Shown here one piece after another: positions 1 to 6,992 of a stretch of 39,609 bases of DNA. The stretch lies in contig JAGVQB010000047.1 of NCBI GenBank assembly GCA_020051955.1, positions 1 through 39,609 on the forward strand, in the 5' to 3' direction. The position numbers and the translations under genes are program-made. Within the stretch, counting starts at the first letter, position 1, and every line of letters starts with the position of its first letter. This DNA comes from a bacterium. Its GTDB lineage: Bacteria; Patescibacteriota; Patescibacteriia; UBA9934; GWF2-40-263. Below the pieces are notes generated by a model. That model was not told where the DNA came from. It ran no database searches and saw only the letters and a program-made list of their open reading frames with translations.

Positions 1-20
1 GCCGTAACCAGATATGCCGT

Positions 21-100
21 GTTATGTGATGTGCATGTTTTACTTTAATCCCGATAGCAATCGGGATTGCTCTAAAAAAGAATTTTAATTTTGTTTTTTG
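21..100 (+). repeat. Left copy of a long imperfect inverted repeat flanking the R-M module
   Basis: GTTATGTGAtgTGCATGTTTTACTTT + hairpin AATCCCGAT-AGCA-ATCGGGATT + GCTCTAAAAAAGAATTTtAATTTTGTTTTTT; its reverse complement recurs with few changes at 5910-5980. Confidence 0.85.
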
Positions 101-149
101 TTTTGGATTTTGGGCAGAGGGGTTAGGGGTGAATGCCCAAAATCCAAAA
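101..149. repeat. Perfect 15-bp stem-loop
   Basis: TTTTGGATTTTGGGC (101-115) / GCCCAAAATCCAAAA (135-149); loop agaggggttaggggtgaat. Confidence 0.85.
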
Positions 150-170
150 CTCCTTATTCTGTTTGAGGGA

Positions 171-205
171 GGGGCAAGAGGGGAACTAAAGGGGTGAATT
201 GCCCC
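171..205. repeat. Second stem-loop with a G-rich loop
   Basis: GGGGCAA (171-177) / TTGCCCC (199-205); loop gaggggaactaaaggggtgaa resembles the loop at 116-134. Confidence 0.7.
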
Positions 206-219
206 GACCGAAAACTTCC

Positions 220-2913
220 CTATCTGTTTTCAATTAACTGTTTTTCAAACACTTCTTCAAACTTTTCACGCAAAGTACTATTGACTTGTCCTTCGTTGAA
301 GAAAGGCAAACCAATCAAACGAAAATCCTTATTTTCTATCTTCAAATCAACTGTATGACTTTTTTCAATTTCAATCAAAAGTTTCTGTTTCCAACCTTCT
401 TTTGATTGCTCAAAAGTATTTTGCGCGTCCAAAAATTGATCACCTTTCGGCTCAACAAAAATCTGATACATAACTTCTTGCTTTGTCTTCTTCTCTGTCA
501 GAAACAAAACGAAATCTGGATAAAATGGCTCGCCGTTTTCATAGCTGTAAATTTTGAAAAACTGTTCATTGCGGAGTAAGGCAATGTCTTGATATTTTTT
601 CTTTAACTTTGTTATTGCCTCATCAATAAAGCGCAAAAATGATTCTTCCTCGCTCGTTCCCCGGATTTCGTTTTGAGCAAACCAATCCCGAGAAGAAAAA
701 TCAAAATCTCGCATATTTTGCGCTCGCGGACTTTCGCTATCTAATTGCAATACCTTGTCACTTTCAAATATTTTTTGGATCAAATGAGCTTTGAATTCCT
801 TTGTTCCGTAGTATTCCTTTTTCTCTTTGCCAGCGATTTCCAGCACTTTATCAATCACAAATCCGGCAATATTCAATTTTTCAATCTGCAAAAGATTTTC
901 AACCTGCTCGCTTGTGCCTTTCACCTTGATTTTTATTCCGCCAAGATATTTTTCATTTAAAATAAAATCTTTTGTGGATTCTATATTGCCGAATATCTTT
1001 TTTAGCTCATTAAATCGTCCGGCAGGCATTTTTGCCAAAGCGGTGCGGACAATATGTGTTCCCAAATCAGCAATTTTATAATCCCGAATTTCTATTTTTG
1101 CTTTTACTCCGGCGCCAGCCCCCGCAACAAACAAATCTTTTTCTATGGCTTCTCGCGTTGGTAGTTGAAAGATGTTTATTTCAGCATTGTGGTCAAATTC
1201 CGCTTTGGCGTCCGAGAGCGCAAAAACATCCTTTCCTAAATTTTCCTTGCGAGAATTTAAGAAAATATAACCTTTCTTCCAAAAATCACTGTTTTTAAAA
1301 TCACCTTTGATTTTGATCTCTTTTTGTACTGTTCGCGACGGCATAATACCTTCACGAACCAAAACACTTTCCAATTCTTGAATATAGCGAGGATTCGTTA
1401 CGCTGTGATAATAAAGCTGTTCCAAAATCCGAAGTTCGTTTTGTATGTCGGTATCAAATTTTCGCCTATATGCGTCCGTAAATTCGCCGAGCGTAAATGG
1501 ATAATATCTAGCGCCTCGTCCGATAAGTTGCGCCTCTTGCACAGTTGTTTTACCCGGTTTATTGCTTTTGGCGTCACGGCTGTTATACAAACGGACAATG
1601 TCAAAAAGATTTAAAACATCCCAACCCTCATTTAATTTTTCTGTTGCAAAAATAGCGCGGATTTCATTGTTTTGATCTTCCAACGAATTAAGTAAAATTT
1701 GTTTTTGCTCTAAATCTTTATCTTCATCAACCGTCAAGCATTTTTCCGGTGCAAAATCGCTTTTAATTTCTGCCACTAAATCCGCGAGAGTAATTTTTTG
1801 CTCATTGAAAAATTCAAATGCTTTTTGCAATGTCGCGTCTTTAATTGCCGTTTGCTGTTTTAGGTGTTTTTCGCCGAGTTCAGAAATAAGTTTGTGAAAA
1901 GAATCTTTGAAAATACTTGAAACGACAATTTGCGGATTATGTTCTTTTGATATTCCTTCTTTCGGAATACTTACTCTGTTAGCTTTGAACATAACCACGG
2001 GCTTTAGTGCGATTTTATACTTTTCTGCCACCTTACGGCGATATTGTGAAATAATCACCGCCGAAAGCGCGCGTTCCATAATCGGCGCGTTTATTTGTAA
2101 AGTTCGCACATCTTTTGAAAACCCGTCCAAGCGATATTCTTTCAGATCATAGCGATAAATTGCTTTGTCTTTATACTTTTCCAAAATTTCCGGATATTCC
2201 TGCTCCAAACGAGCCGTCGCCGTAAATTCCAAAAGCACATTATCCTTTTGGCTGTTGGCGTTCAAAATCCGCATCACTGTATTTTCCCAATTGCGTCGGT
2301 CTTCTTCTTCGGTTTTGCTTATCTTGGCATTTGTTTCCGCGGATAGATTATGCGCTTCATCCGCAATCAAAACAATTTTCTTGTCCTCAAAATCTTCATA
2401 AGTCAAAACATTTTCGCGAGCGAAATTAAAGCGAGAATGCAAAAGCGCAGTCGTGGAAAAGATAATATTTATATCGTCGTCATTTACTCCTTCAAAATTA
2501 TCCACCTCTTTGATTTTTATTTCCTGTCCGCCAAGTGAAATTTTATCGGCAAATAAATACTTTTTAGAATTCGGATCAAGAAAATTGGCCTTGGTCTTTT
2601 GGATAATGTTGCCAAGGCGAGTAAAAAAAATGAAATTGCGGTATCCCTTTTGATAAAAATACAAAAAATTGGCGGACATGATGAGCGTCTTGCCCGAGCC
2701 GGTCGCCATATTAAACATCAAATGAATCGGTTTTTGTTTTTGGTGGTATTCCTCAACATAATAATAAAAACGCCCCAGCGCTTCTTTTTGGTATTCGCGC
2801 GCCGGAAAAGCCGGATTTAGATTTTTCAAAATATCCGTTTTTTCCGTCGCCTTGTTTTTGAAAACATCAGCACCGGCAAAGTTTTTATATGAGTTAAATT
2901 CGTCGTATAACAT
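220..2913 (-). CDS. res: Type III restriction endonuclease subunit Res (DEAD-like helicase)
   Basis: 897 aa; Walker A MATGSGKT, DEAHN box, helicase motif QLIGRGAR, C-terminal YPDFVLFL...FVEPKGDQF nuclease-like motif; directly downstream of mod. Confidence 0.92.
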   Translation of the reverse strand: MLYDEFNSYKNFAGADVFKNKATEKTDILKNLNPAFPAREYQKEALGRFYYYVEEYHQKQKPIHLMFNMATGSGKTLIMSANFLYFYQKGYRNFIFFTRLGNIIQKTKANFLDPNSKKYLFADKISLGGQEIKIKEVDNFEGVNDDDINIIFSTTALLHSRFNFARENVLTYEDFEDKKIVLIADEAHNLSAETNAKISKTEEEDRRNWENTVMRILNANSQKDNVLLEFTATARLEQEYPEILEKYKDKAIYRYDLKEYRLDGFSKDVRTLQINAPIMERALSAVIISQYRRKVAEKYKIALKPVVMFKANRVSIPKEGISKEHNPQIVVSSIFKDSFHKLISELGEKHLKQQTAIKDATLQKAFEFFNEQKITLADLVAEIKSDFAPEKCLTVDEDKDLEQKQILLNSLEDQNNEIRAIFATEKLNEGWDVLNLFDIVRLYNSRDAKSNKPGKTTVQEAQLIGRGARYYPFTLGEFTDAYRRKFDTDIQNELRILEQLYYHSVTNPRYIQELESVLVREGIMPSRTVQKEIKIKGDFKNSDFWKKGYIFLNSRKENLGKDVFALSDAKAEFDHNAEINIFQLPTREAIEKDLFVAGAGAGVKAKIEIRDYKIADLGTHIVRTALAKMPAGRFNELKKIFGNIESTKDFILNEKYLGGIKIKVKGTSEQVENLLQIEKLNIAGFVIDKVLEIAGKEKKEYYGTKEFKAHLIQKIFESDKVLQLDSESPRAQNMRDFDFSSRDWFAQNEIRGTSEEESFLRFIDEAITKLKKKYQDIALLRNEQFFKIYSYENGEPFYPDFVLFLTEKKTKQEVMYQIFVEPKGDQFLDAQNTFEQSKEGWKQKLLIEIEKSHTVDLKIENKDFRLIGLPFFNEGQVNSTLREKFEEVFEKQLIENR

Positions 2914-2914
2914 A

Positions 2915-3955
2915 TTATTCTTTTAATAAGCTCAAAAATGTCTGTATTCTTCCAAATAATTCATCGAAGGTTATGATTTCAACCTCTTTAGAGAAAGACC
3001 GATACAATTCAAAAGATTTTTTCTCATCATTGTTTTGTAAGTTTTTTATTTTACCAATAACTAAAATACATTTGGCATTATGTAAAAATTTTCCATTATT
3101 ATCACCATGGGTATTTATATAGATTTTTCTTTGATTTAAAACTTGATTTATTCCGCCGGTCAATTCGTCGCTCATACTAAAAATAACATTGTCTTTTCCG
3201 TCCTCGTCTCCGCGATATTTACTGCCAACAATTTTTGTTTCTGGTGTTTTTATTTCAATAAAAGCTAAATTACCCGTAAGATCATTTTTATACAATAAAT
3301 CACCTTTTACGCCCCCCTTATCGTCGTCTTCTTTCCCTCCACAATAAAATTTTTTTCCTATCAATATGAATGGACAAGAAAATATTTGAGATAATATCCA
3401 TGTATGATTCTGGAATAACTGTTGCCAAAATTCCTCGTTATTATTACCTATGTTGTCATTCCAATTTTTTATGATGTCTTCTAAACGCGCAACACTAACC
3501 AAGGAATCAATATTTTTTAGCTTATTTTGATTTAAGTGTTTGATAAATGAAAAATCAATTTCTTCCGGATTATCAATAATTACTTTTTTCTTTTCAATCT
3601 TTTGTCCGATTGCATGATATTGTGCATTAAGAAATTCTGTTAATTTTTTAACAGCTTCTCCATTACCAGCATCGATTTTCATCGACTGAAAATCGCCATG
3701 AAAATGATCCTCTGCTTCATCAACTACAGCCTCCCATGCGTCAGTGGTCTTTTTTCTTTTATATTTGTTTAATTTCAAATCAAAATGGTGAATTGTTCCG
3801 TCTTTCTTGGGAATATGAAAAGCATGAGCGATTATTGTAGTAAAATCTGTTTTATAAATTACTTGTCTTGAAACACCAAAACCTCTTGATTTAGCGTCAA
3901 TAGAAATTGCCTCAATTTCATCGTTTAGTTTTACATCAAAATTATTTTGATCCAT
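2915..3955 (-). CDS. Shedu/DUF4263-like PD-(D/E)XK nuclease-domain protein
   Basis: 346 aa; C-terminal GDLLYKNDLTGNLAFIEIKTP (D...ExK) preceded by EEFWQQLFQNHTWILSQIF, typical of DUF4263; overlaps mod by 14 nt. Confidence 0.75.
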   Translation of the reverse strand: MDQNNFDVKLNDEIEAISIDAKSRGFGVSRQVIYKTDFTTIIAHAFHIPKKDGTIHHFDLKLNKYKRKKTTDAWEAVVDEAEDHFHGDFQSMKIDAGNGEAVKKLTEFLNAQYHAIGQKIEKKKVIIDNPEEIDFSFIKHLNQNKLKNIDSLVSVARLEDIIKNWNDNIGNNNEEFWQQLFQNHTWILSQIFSCPFILIGKKFYCGGKEDDDKGGVKGDLLYKNDLTGNLAFIEIKTPETKIVGSKYRGDEDGKDNVIFSMSDELTGGINQVLNQRKIYINTHGDNNGKFLHNAKCILVIGKIKNLQNNDEKKSFELYRSFSKEVEIITFDELFGRIQTFLSLLKE

Positions 3956-5798
3956 AAAAATTCTCGTTTAACTCTTTGTCTTTCTTACTTACTCCGTACT
4001 CTTTGTCTTCAATCTCGCTCAAATTGACATAAAGCTGATTTTTATCCAAACATGCAATCAAAAACTTTTTTTGATCGGCAATACTCAAATCCTCAAAATC
4101 TTTGGCGTTGGCGACAATCATTTCCGGCTTTACTTTATAGCTCAAAAATGCGGTTTCTTTCATTTCGTCCCAAAGTTTAGCGAGTTCTTTTCCTGTTTTT
4201 GTATCGCGAATATTTTCTATCCATTCCTCGTTCCATTTAGCGAGTTCCATATAAACAAAATCCCCGCCACCTTTCCAATTTACATCTTTTGAAATTCCAC
4301 CCTGATCGCCAGCGATAACCTCTTTCAATCTCGCTTCCGGCAGATCATGAATGTAATCCATTTGCTCAATACCGATATATTGCCGACCTGTCTTGTGTGC
4401 GGTCGCTAATGTAGTGCCCGTACCCGCAAAAAAATCTAACACCAAATCGTTATTGTCTATTGTTAAATCAAAAATTCTTTGTAAAAGTTTTTCTGGCTTT
4501 TGTCCGGAGAATCCCGTGTCTTCACTTTTACTCCTATTCATGTTTCCGATATCTCCCCACAAGTTATCTATCTGTTTTCCAATTTTCAGTCTTTCATTCA
4601 GATAATATTTTTCTCTAATAGTTTTATCGGTAATATATAATCTTCCTTCCTTTTCTTTCGCTTTTAATTTTTCTTTCGTCATTCTCCATCCTTTTGCTGG
4701 ACATTTCCAAATCCTTCCCTTGTTGTCTTTATAATCGTAAGTTGTTTGCGGACCAGGACCACCTGTTTTTTGCAGACTAACGGTTGTGTACTTACCTTTT
4801 CCGTCATTATCGTCCTTATTAAACGAAGCTATATCGATCTCGGTTAATTCTTTTGTAATGTTATTTATTCCGGAACTTGGATTTTTTGAGTAAAACAAAA
4901 TTGTATCAATATTCCAAGGTAAATTTTTACTTATAGTTTTACCCGCATATGTTCTATGCCAGTATATTGAATTTCTATAATTATCTCTTCCAAAAATATC
5001 ATCTAACAAAACTTTCAGATATGCTTGTTCGCTATCGTCGCATTGCACAAAAATAAAACCATCATCCCTCAATAAAGTTTTTGCAACTTCTAATCTATTC
5101 TTCATAAATACCAACCACGAGGAGTGATTGAAAGAATCGTTATAATTAAAACCATCGTTTCCCGTATTATATGGCGGGTCAATGTAAATCAATTTTACTT
5201 TTCCGGAGAATTCTTTTTTGAGCGAGGCGAGGGCGAGTAAGTTATTGCCTTTAATAATCAAATTATCTTTGATCGTTCCTTTTTCATCGCGATTGAAGCC
5301 GTCCAGTTTGTGTTCGCCTTTTTTGTCTATCCGCTTAAAATTGGTAAAAACTTTGGCGTCTAGCAAGCGATTGATGTCGTCCGGCGCCAACGTTTCGTTA
5401 TAAAAAATCTCGTCTCTTTTTTGGTCTTCCTTGGTCATTCCGCCTTCCAAAACACAATCTTTATATGGCCAAGTTAAAACAATTTCTTTGTTTTCGCTCA
5501 CATATTCATCGCCAGCAGTTAAGCCGATTTTGTTCTTAAAAGCGGTATAAGAATCCGGCAGAAATTGTTTATTGGAAACAAAACGGATAAATTTCTCTTT
5601 ATCAAAAATCAACGTCTTTTCTACTTCAAAAAAGAAGTGTTGCTTGATCGCTTTTTCGGAAAGCAAAAGTTTTATAAGTTCAGGGTCATTTTTTCGTGCC
5701 AATTCCTGTGTTTGGTTTTTTAAAAGTACGCCGTCTTGCGAAACAAGGCGTTCGTCTTTTTTTAATAAATCTGTTAACTGTTCAAATATGTTTTTCAT
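3942..5798 (-). CDS. mod: Type III R-M site-specific DNA-methyltransferase (adenine-N6) Mod
   Basis: 618 aa; DPPYNTGNDGFNYNDSF catalytic motif, LDFFAGTGTTLATA SAM motif. Confidence 0.93.
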   Translation of the reverse strand: MKNIFEQLTDLLKKDERLVSQDGVLLKNQTQELARKNDPELIKLLLSEKAIKQHFFFEVEKTLIFDKEKFIRFVSNKQFLPDSYTAFKNKIGLTAGDEYVSENKEIVLTWPYKDCVLEGGMTKEDQKRDEIFYNETLAPDDINRLLDAKVFTNFKRIDKKGEHKLDGFNRDEKGTIKDNLIIKGNNLLALASLKKEFSGKVKLIYIDPPYNTGNDGFNYNDSFNHSSWLVFMKNRLEVAKTLLRDDGFIFVQCDDSEQAYLKVLLDDIFGRDNYRNSIYWHRTYAGKTISKNLPWNIDTILFYSKNPSSGINNITKELTEIDIASFNKDDNDGKGKYTTVSLQKTGGPGPQTTYDYKDNKGRIWKCPAKGWRMTKEKLKAKEKEGRLYITDKTIREKYYLNERLKIGKQIDNLWGDIGNMNRSKSEDTGFSGQKPEKLLQRIFDLTIDNNDLVLDFFAGTGTTLATAHKTGRQYIGIEQMDYIHDLPEARLKEVIAGDQGGISKDVNWKGGGDFVYMELAKWNEEWIENIRDTKTGKELAKLWDEMKETAFLSYKVKPEMIVANAKDFEDLSIADQKKFLIACLDKNQLYVNLSEIEDKEYGVSKKDKELNENFYGSK

Positions 5799-5909
5799 AG
5801 TTTTTAGTTTCGTAAATCAAGTTATTAATATTGTATTCGTTTTCCCCTTATAAATAAATCGTTTTCGTAGCGGAGCGGAGAAAACACCTTATACCCCTTT
5901 CTAATAAAT

Positions 5910-5980
5910 AAAAAACAAAATTCAAATTCTTTTTTAGAGCTGGGCGATAGCCCAAAAGTAAAACATGCATTTCACATAAC
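5910..5980 (-). repeat. Right copy of the long imperfect inverted repeat
   Basis: Minus strand: GTTATGTGAaaTGCATGTTTTACTTT + TGGGC-TATC-GCCCA hairpin + GCTCTAAAAAAGAATTTgAATTTTGTTTTTT. Confidence 0.85.
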
Positions 5981-6004
5981 TGGTTTTTATACGAACTGTT
6001 TTCG

Positions 6005-6031
6005 GATACACACACGTATTCGTTGTGTATC
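6005..6031. repeat. Hairpin just outside the right inverted repeat
   Basis: GATACACA-c-ACG-TATT-CGT-TGTGTATC: 8-bp plus 3-bp stems with one bulged base. Confidence 0.75.
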
Positions 6032-6155: not shown

Positions 6156-6992
6156 ATGGCAAATATTCAATTTCATAATTTGGATCAAGCGTTTCTGGAA
6201 CTCGAGAGGGTTCTCACTCTTAGAAACTATAGTCGTGCAACCTGTAAAAGCTACAGAGGATGTCTTTTGCGTTTCCTGCAGACGCATCCAGATGAGATGA
6301 ACAAACCAAATAAAACGTCGATTGAGAATTTTCTGCTTGATCTGTATGGAAAAAATTCTTCTGCGCAGACAGTGACATCATACCTACAAGCGATTCAGTT
6401 CTATTACCGTGAGGTAATCGGTGTGAATATTGACCTGCAGATCAAAACACCCAGGCGGCCATCTCGGCTTCCTGTTACATTGAGCCACAAGGAAATTGAA
6501 AGGATTCTATCAAACGTTTCGAACGATAAGCACCGCACTATGATTGCGCTTGCGTACGGATCGGGACTTCGCGTGTCTGAACTTACAGATTTGCGCGCGG
6601 GAAGCATAGATTTTGACGAAGGCGTCATATATGTCTATCAGGGGAAAGGTAAAAAGGATCGAATCACGCTTTTGCCGCAGGTAATCATTAAGGAGTTGCG
6701 AAAAAGTACAGCAGGCAAATGTCCGAACGACTATCTATTTGAGAGTGAACGTGGAGGCAGACTCTCATCACGCTCGATACAAAAAGTATTTTCACACTCT
6801 TTAAAAGTTTCGGAAATAAAAAAGCCAGCGACCTTTCATTCACTTCGGCATAGTTTTGCAACGCATATTCTCGAACAGGGAACGGATTTGCGATTTATTC
6901 AAAAACTTCTTGGACACTCGAATATTCGAACGACACAACGCTATACACACGTCTCGACCGCATCACTTCGTGCGATTCAGAGCCCGCTATGA
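6156..6992 (+). CDS. Xer-like tyrosine recombinase/integrase
   Basis: 278 aa; N-terminal SAM-like core-binding region; catalytic pattern R (GSGLRVSEL), HSLRHSFATH, LLGHSNIRTTQRYTHV. Confidence 0.9.
   Translation: MANIQFHNLDQAFLELERVLTLRNYSRATCKSYRGCLLRFLQTHPDEMNKPNKTSIENFLLDLYGKNSSAQTVTSYLQAIQFYYREVIGVNIDLQIKTPRRPSRLPVTLSHKEIERILSNVSNDKHRTMIALAYGSGLRVSELTDLRAGSIDFDEGVIYVYQGKGKKDRITLLPQVIIKELRKSTAGKCPNDYLFESERGGRLSSRSIQKVFSHSLKVSEIKKPATFHSLRHSFATHILEQGTDLRFIQKLLGHSNIRTTQRYTHVSTASLRAIQSPL

Follow-up and report, generated by a model that had tools for sequence, protein, structure and literature searches.

The question raised by this locus is whether the type III restriction-modification (R-M) operon near its left end, which is enclosed by a long imperfect inverted repeat, forms a mobile unit, where that unit ends and what moves it. 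The window is the whole stretch of DNA that was analysed (39,609 nucleotides). Judged by sequence comparison, positions 21-5980 together with a missing attC very probably make up one integron-type gene cassette of about 6 kb, inserted at the attI-like site that belongs to an integron-like platform. The genes concerned are as follows.

220-2913, minus strand: type III restriction subunit, res (Pfam ResIII; PADLOC REase_III, E = 8.1e-112)
2915-3955, minus strand: Shedu (SduA), between mod and res (Pfam SduA_C, E = 5.9e-22; PADLOC SduA, E = 5.9e-63)
3942-5798, minus strand: type III DNA methyltransferase, mod (Pfam N6_N4_Mtase and TypeIII_RM_meth; PADLOC MTase_III, E = 5.5e-189)
6156-6992, plus strand: tyrosine recombinase of 278 aa that resembles integron integrases, similar to XerA in length and lacking the IntI-specific insertion (Pfam Phage_integrase, E = 2.5e-44)

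The first-pass annotation had described the enclosed DNA as a mod-Shedu-res operon that is AT-richer than its neighbourhood. The Pfam and PADLOC matches confirm the operon, and its GC content is 0.30-0.40 compared to about 0.44-0.50 past the recombinase. Both blocks of the inverted repeat described in that annotation were also recovered. The outer block pairs 21-46 with 5955-5980 (26 nt, 24 matching), and its two mismatches are the positions that had been written as 'nn'. The inner block pairs 69-103 with 5906-5940 (35 nt, 33 matching). Hairpins of differing stem sequence separate the outer from the inner blocks, AATCCCGAT..ATCGGGATT and TGGGC..GCCCA. The inverted repeat has a chance expectation of E = 2.8e-10 for the 1-Mb host genome, in which no third copy of the repeat, no complete attC and no other copies of the ends were found. 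The window cassette was therefore read by comparison with other genomes. Genomes from other families of the class carry DNA of the ends at 91-99% identity, in many cases as inverted pairs, and near-identical ends enclose several unrelated cargos, as had been expected of a unit with ends of its own.

The two ends differ in what lies beyond them. Among 26 regions compared, the right-hand type of end (END A) has variable flanking sequence. Next to the left-hand type (END B), conservation continues for about 90 bases into an imperfect palindrome ending in ...GAAAC or ...GGAAC, after which the next unit begins with GTTRNNYGAAAT; two units follow each other directly in locus L037. Since the conservation at END B runs into an attC-like palindrome, the left repeat is not a terminus. 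The first base of the window is also the first base of its contig and only 20 bp lie to the left of the repeat, so that the true left boundary of the unit is missing. The ends of the window unit are divided as follows.

1-20, minus strand: first 20 nt (L'' side) of an attC-like core, identical to the starts of complete cores in L029, L031 and L032, with a covariance-model match
21-46, minus strand: R'' arm of 26 nt, complementary to the R' arm except at positions 10-11
47-103, minus strand: inner part of END B, a hairpin with a different stem and the 35-nt inner block
5906-5954, minus strand: remainder of END A, the hairpin TGGGC..GCCCA and the 35-nt inner block
5955-5980, minus strand: cassette 5' end, R' arm of 26 nt, GTTATGTGAAATGCATGTTTTACTTT
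5981-6008, minus strand: attI-like insertion site with arms TTATACGAA (5987-5995) and TTCGGATA (6001-6008); junction 5980|5981

The covariance-model test of the ends that had been proposed at first pass gave a match over positions 1-31 of 109 at the start of the window, where it is cut by the contig end. Each copy of the repeat holds one half of a 26-bp stem, the right copy being the cassette 5' start and the left copy the sequence just before the attC-like site. On its 5' side the unit ends with the outer edge of the right copy (5980|5981); its 3' terminus lies about 90 bp past the left copy, after the attC-like palindrome that was lost at the contig end. The first-pass reading is thus supported in part, for a discrete and transferable defence unit but not for the two repeats as its two termini.

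A transposon-like or MITE-like unit bounded by the two repeats would account for the inverted repeats of about 75-83 bp that flank the operon and for identical ends around other cargos. Such a unit is extremely improbable here, as the roughly 90 bp outside END B are conserved up to the AAC|GTT junction, the homology between relatives (L029 and L031) stops at that junction and not at the repeat, and the arrays occur in one strand orientation only. The enclosed proteins match no transposase family in Pfam, in line with the non-transposase unit that had been suspected. A transposon with terminal inverted repeats was rejected because the unit does not end at the outer edges of both repeats and has no transposase.

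The reading as a cassette depends on the nature of the attC-like sites. In nine complete cores, compensatory double changes were observed in 14 of the 26 pairs of the common structure. The covariance model found 50 sites in the fetched loci at E < 1e-6, a value that is rough in home-made models. In the alignment of these sites 93.3% of the cells pair, a count that leans towards the structure because the alignment was fitted to the model. The covariation score is 0.627 compared to 0.139 for shuffles and 0.07-0.10 with the partners slid, and the compensatory changes span three helices. A second covariance model identified 132 sites in 39 loci. Neighbouring sites share their orientation in all 93 pairs, and 193 of 201 array ORFs of at least 90 aa lie on the attC strand. 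The arrays therefore consist, as those of integrons do, of tandem cassettes with ORFs and attC in one orientation, and the sites are imperfect palindromes with a conserved fold and the order R''-L''-L'-R' that is required of attC. GTT stands at the junction in 122 of the 132 sites, and position 5 of the R box is mostly T, so that the R boxes deviate from strict GTTRRRY (integron consensus RYYYAAC / GTTRRRY). Integron attC sites have extrahelical bases in the L stem that the integrase reads; here the lower 11 bp of the L stem are free of bulges, and a conserved GTT/AAC(A/T)T motif on top could form a 2-nt bulge. Fold energies make the bottom strand the more stable one in 74 of 79 reconstructed circular sites. 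It is the bottom strand of classical attC that gets recombined (PMC8946536).

Back-to-back short palindromes were also observed beside attC-like sites in L091, L101, L029 and L041, some of them only about 210 bp apart, with cassette starts such as GTTATGCAAAATGCGCC... and TTATGCCGACATCGC...; these look like empty or minimal cassettes.

The outer block of the repeat corresponds exactly to the 26-nt R arm of these sites and its 'nn' to a conserved 2-nt mismatch. In 88 cassettes whose limits are set by successive sites, the 5' end was compared with the complements of 3' ends; the score is 22.4 with the cassette's own 3' end and 11.0 with those of other cassettes (p = 4e-13). Position by position, the arm matches at 1-9 and 12-26 and almost never at 10-11, and beyond 26 matching drops to the background level. 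Of 73 cassettes, roughly half have the full 26-nt arm. Arm extension and cassette length are uncorrelated. Around half of the cassettes lack a long match to their own arm, and many of them may each consist of two cassettes separated by an attC that escaped detection. Class 1 integron cassettes served as the control, the home-made scan for classical attC in IntI loci having given too few sites, and in the same comparison they have arms of 7-12 nt without that mismatch. In the end family of the window, the complementarity extends past the arm through the hairpin and the 35-nt inner block. As the two arms of one cassette are adjacent only in its circular form, these matches suggest that selection acts on the circular form. 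The cassette-specific 26-bp arms also provide a handle on how cassettes form.

The Xer-like recombinase that had been noted outside the right copy belongs to the unit, and its relatives recur at array heads elsewhere. The protein passes the NCBIfam XerA_Arch cut-off and scores 204 of 265 bits with the integron integrase model TIGR02249. Its best match among PDB sequences is XerA, followed by IntI4 (2A3V) with a gap of 43 aa. The top fold match of its AlphaFold model (pLDDT 88.7) is 2A3V, a Vibrio integron integrase (VchIntIA), and the model has no helix between 185 and 205. The IntI-specific insertion (about 42 residues) is missing in all 47 recombinases compared, and the spacing from K to HxxRH is 65 in 46 of them and 68 in one, compared to 106-108 in IntI. 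The IntI-specific additional domain around patch III (I2) that characterises integrons is thus absent from the recombinases. In the recombinase tree most of the proteins fall in one clade (SH-aLRT 99), four in a second and IntI in a third; the deep branching lacks resolution.

Many of the recombinase genes are preceded by a dif-like palindrome with the consensus TATACGAAAACA.TTCGTATAA.AAC.A|GTT, which ends at the first GTT. Next to a divergent recombinase gene, this putative attI is placed as in an integron. An attI-like site near-identical to that of the window is also present at L029 12680-12880 (genome G056), followed by an oxidoreductase gene and without an adjoining recombinase.

The dif-like character of this site (TTATRYGAA arms in the site and in the R boxes) and the XerA-like recombinase recall the Xer-dependent dif modules known on Acinetobacter plasmids, in which cargo lies between inverse dif-like sites and is moved double-stranded. 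That kind of module is very improbable for the window, where the inverted copies are the halves of one site and not two whole sites, and the array sites fold as long palindromes that all point the same way and show compensatory changes in three helices. An Xer/dif (pdif) module was rejected on the grounds that no whole inverse dif sites flank the cargo and that the arrays are unidirectional.

Recombinase and sites are widespread in Patescibacteria and also occur together. All of the evidence is sequence, taken from mostly fragmentary metagenome assemblies, and the site counts in the large scans are lower bounds because scoring in them was confined to the top ten candidates of each genome. The recombinase was identified in 92 of the 286 genomes of the class and attC-like sites, counted in this way, in 141. 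Sites are present, among the ten best candidates, in 84 of the 92 recombinase-positive genomes and in 57 of the other 194 (p = 1e-24). The sites in those 57 have to be put down to dispersal in trans, loss of the recombinase or gaps in the assemblies. Genomes outside the class were held out from the building of the covariance model; there, sites are present in 22 of 27 recombinase-positive genomes and in 15 of 238 others (p = 7e-18), and all 44 same-contig sites lie on the predicted strand and side. Three of three named Patescibacteria (Peregrinibacteria, Moranbacteria and Magasanikbacteria) have sites. No attC-like site at E 1e-5 was found in 30 genomes outside the phylum, some of which carry true IntI.

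Classical integrons whose divergent IntI was lost, binned elsewhere or left on another replicon, with the Xer-like gene as a bystander, would explain why the sites and arrays look classical, why arrays without a nearby recombinase also occur and why many attC-positive genomes have no detected one. We consider this explanation quite improbable. None of the 60 relatives has a protein above the integron-integrase cut-off, and the Xer-like recombinase stands at the array head in 26 of 26 loci, divergent and on the strand opposite to the sites, and on the predicted strand in 17 held-out loci besides. Its co-occurrence with the sites inside and outside the class likewise argues against a bystander.

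The recombinase gene often lies within about 1 kb of a contig end (L060, L065, L069, L072, L073, L078, L081 and others). The array side faces the end in some of these contigs, and it seems that assemblies tend to break at arrays. L138, a contig labelled Bacteroidia, has an attC-like match at 4735-4842 (E 2.5e-16) with a Bacteroidetes-type integrase on the same strand, which may reflect mis-binning or a related system. In a Firmicutes MAG, weak attC-like matches at L127 4456-4733 and 2357-2725 lie upstream of a recombinase without I2, on the strand that was expected; similar platforms may occur outside Patescibacteria.

The integron-like platform would work as follows. Excision of the cassette as a circle would bring its 3' R'' arm and its 5' R' arm together, and these would pair over 26 bp. 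R pairing, the L stem and the terminal hairpins would then give a folded attC-like site, with the bottom strand as the probable substrate since it is the more stable one. The recombinase encoded at 6156-6992, as the dedicated recombinase of the platform, would recombine the folded site at AAC|GTT, either with the dif-like attI or with a further attC-like site. The sites, their fold, arrays and orientation, the cassette-precise homology and the co-occurrence with the recombinase can be read from the genomes themselves; that this recombinase performs the reaction is what we infer from them. The long R arm with its conserved mismatch may stand in for I2 and the extrahelical bases.

The platform shares with integrons (class 1 and sedentary chromosomal; intI-attI-attC) the divergent recombinase, the adjacent insertion site and the tandem cassettes in one orientation. 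It also shares the folded attC with R and L stems, central spacer and variable terminal structure, the favoured bottom strand, the AAC|GTT junction and, according to the predicted model, a recombinase fold closest to VchIntIA 2A3V. It differs in having a recombinase without the IntI-specific insertion that falls in its own clades, R arms of 26 bp with a conserved 2-nt mismatch in place of the 7-12 bp without mismatch of class 1, a palindromic dif-like attI, and cassettes of up to about 10 kb that hold whole defence operons. Most of the features tested fit integrons but the integrase domain is missing, and the system is therefore called integron-like and not an integron in the strict sense (definition in PMC9668308). 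The Integrons of Archaea described there are similar in that integron-type arrays occur in uncultivated lineages, mostly in metagenome-assembled genomes; the archaeal IntI, however, carry the additional domain around patch III that the Patescibacteria recombinases lack.

With archaeal XerA/dif the platform shares passage of the XerA_Arch cut-off, similar protein length, the best PDB sequence matches and the dif-like attI arms. XerA carries out chromosome-dimer resolution at one double-stranded dif site, whereas the Patescibacteria gene heads cassette arrays and has a patchy distribution. The integration of CTXphi by XerCD is a case in which an I2-less Xer recombinase uses a folded single-stranded site (PMC4792948), but there a phage hijacks the host XerCD, with no dedicated recombinase and no cassette arrays.

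On balance, we favour a dedicated cassette-capture platform of Patescibacteria in which an I2-less Xer-type recombinase acts on folded single-stranded sites. It would be either a surviving relative of integrons as they were before I2 evolved or an independent invention of the integron, with the 26-bp arm and its mismatch replacing I2 and the extrahelical bases, and would supply reduced genomes with whole phage-defence operons. How selection could have produced attC before the I2 domain, or I2 before attC, has been put as a 'chicken-egg paradox' (PMC4792948), and attC-like arrays served by I2-less recombinases make it directly testable. Patescibacteria are missing from the list of integron-bearing phyla in a 2021 review (PMC8618304). 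The literature searched contained no account of integrons from Patescibacteria, CPR or Parcubacteria; preprints and most subscription journals lay outside that search, so priority is not established. Profile searches that define integrons by the IntI domain are expected to miss such platforms, and integron-like capture may be underestimated as a result.

The comparison of relatives also bears on whether cassettes move as whole units. A cassette of 7.6-7.8 kb with an AlwI-type R-M system, SIR2 and HerA is common to genomes G056 and G127 of two families (88% identical). The homology ends at AAC|GTT on both sides, and the cassette lies at the attI-like site in one genome and behind an attC-like site in the other. 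It is the strongest evidence for movement as a cassette. The most frequent families among 150 array proteins are DNA methyltransferases, restriction enzymes, Fic and other candidate defence families, and metabolic genes occur too; as the first loci were picked by likeness to the ends of the window, R-M cargo may be favoured in this count. Single cassettes combine R-M with a second defence, which is Shedu in the window and the following elsewhere.

L031 5117-12260: R-M with SIR2-HerA
L034 3624-10779: R-M with an AbiU-like gene
L032 4394-9449: R-M with PDC-S19

CPR bacteria in groundwater are reported to have a high density of defence systems (PMC12259885). The cassettes offer these bacteria a possible route to such defences, with R-M plus Shedu, SIR2-HerA or AbiU-like genes acquired as single cassettes.

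The first-pass annotation had held that relatives carrying the operon without the flanking copies would refute a cassette. Such relatives exist, as the mod-res operon occurs in G296 and G194 without ends or an attC match (res DNA identity 89-96%), and its homology to the window stops at the gene borders. The mod-res cargo can therefore exist outside a cassette, and the operon is older than, or independent of, the window cassette. The cassette reading is not overturned by this, since several other cargos lie between identical ends. The operon without ends would fit either the capture of a pre-existing operon by a cassette or a replacement of cargo between shared ends. It is unlikely that the present unit is itself immobile and that its cargo was placed by homologous recombination between shared ends, although near-identical END A and END B around unrelated cargos and an operon homology that stops at gene borders would agree with it; another cassette of the same end family has moved whole, with junction-precise borders. 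No second location was found for the cassette of the window itself.

The slot between mod and res was compared in L284 (6840-9500 and 4898-6812), L285 (2112-7649) and the window (220-5798). It holds Shedu in the window and an unrelated ORF of 342 aa in G194 and is empty in G296, and it looks like an accessory-defence slot.
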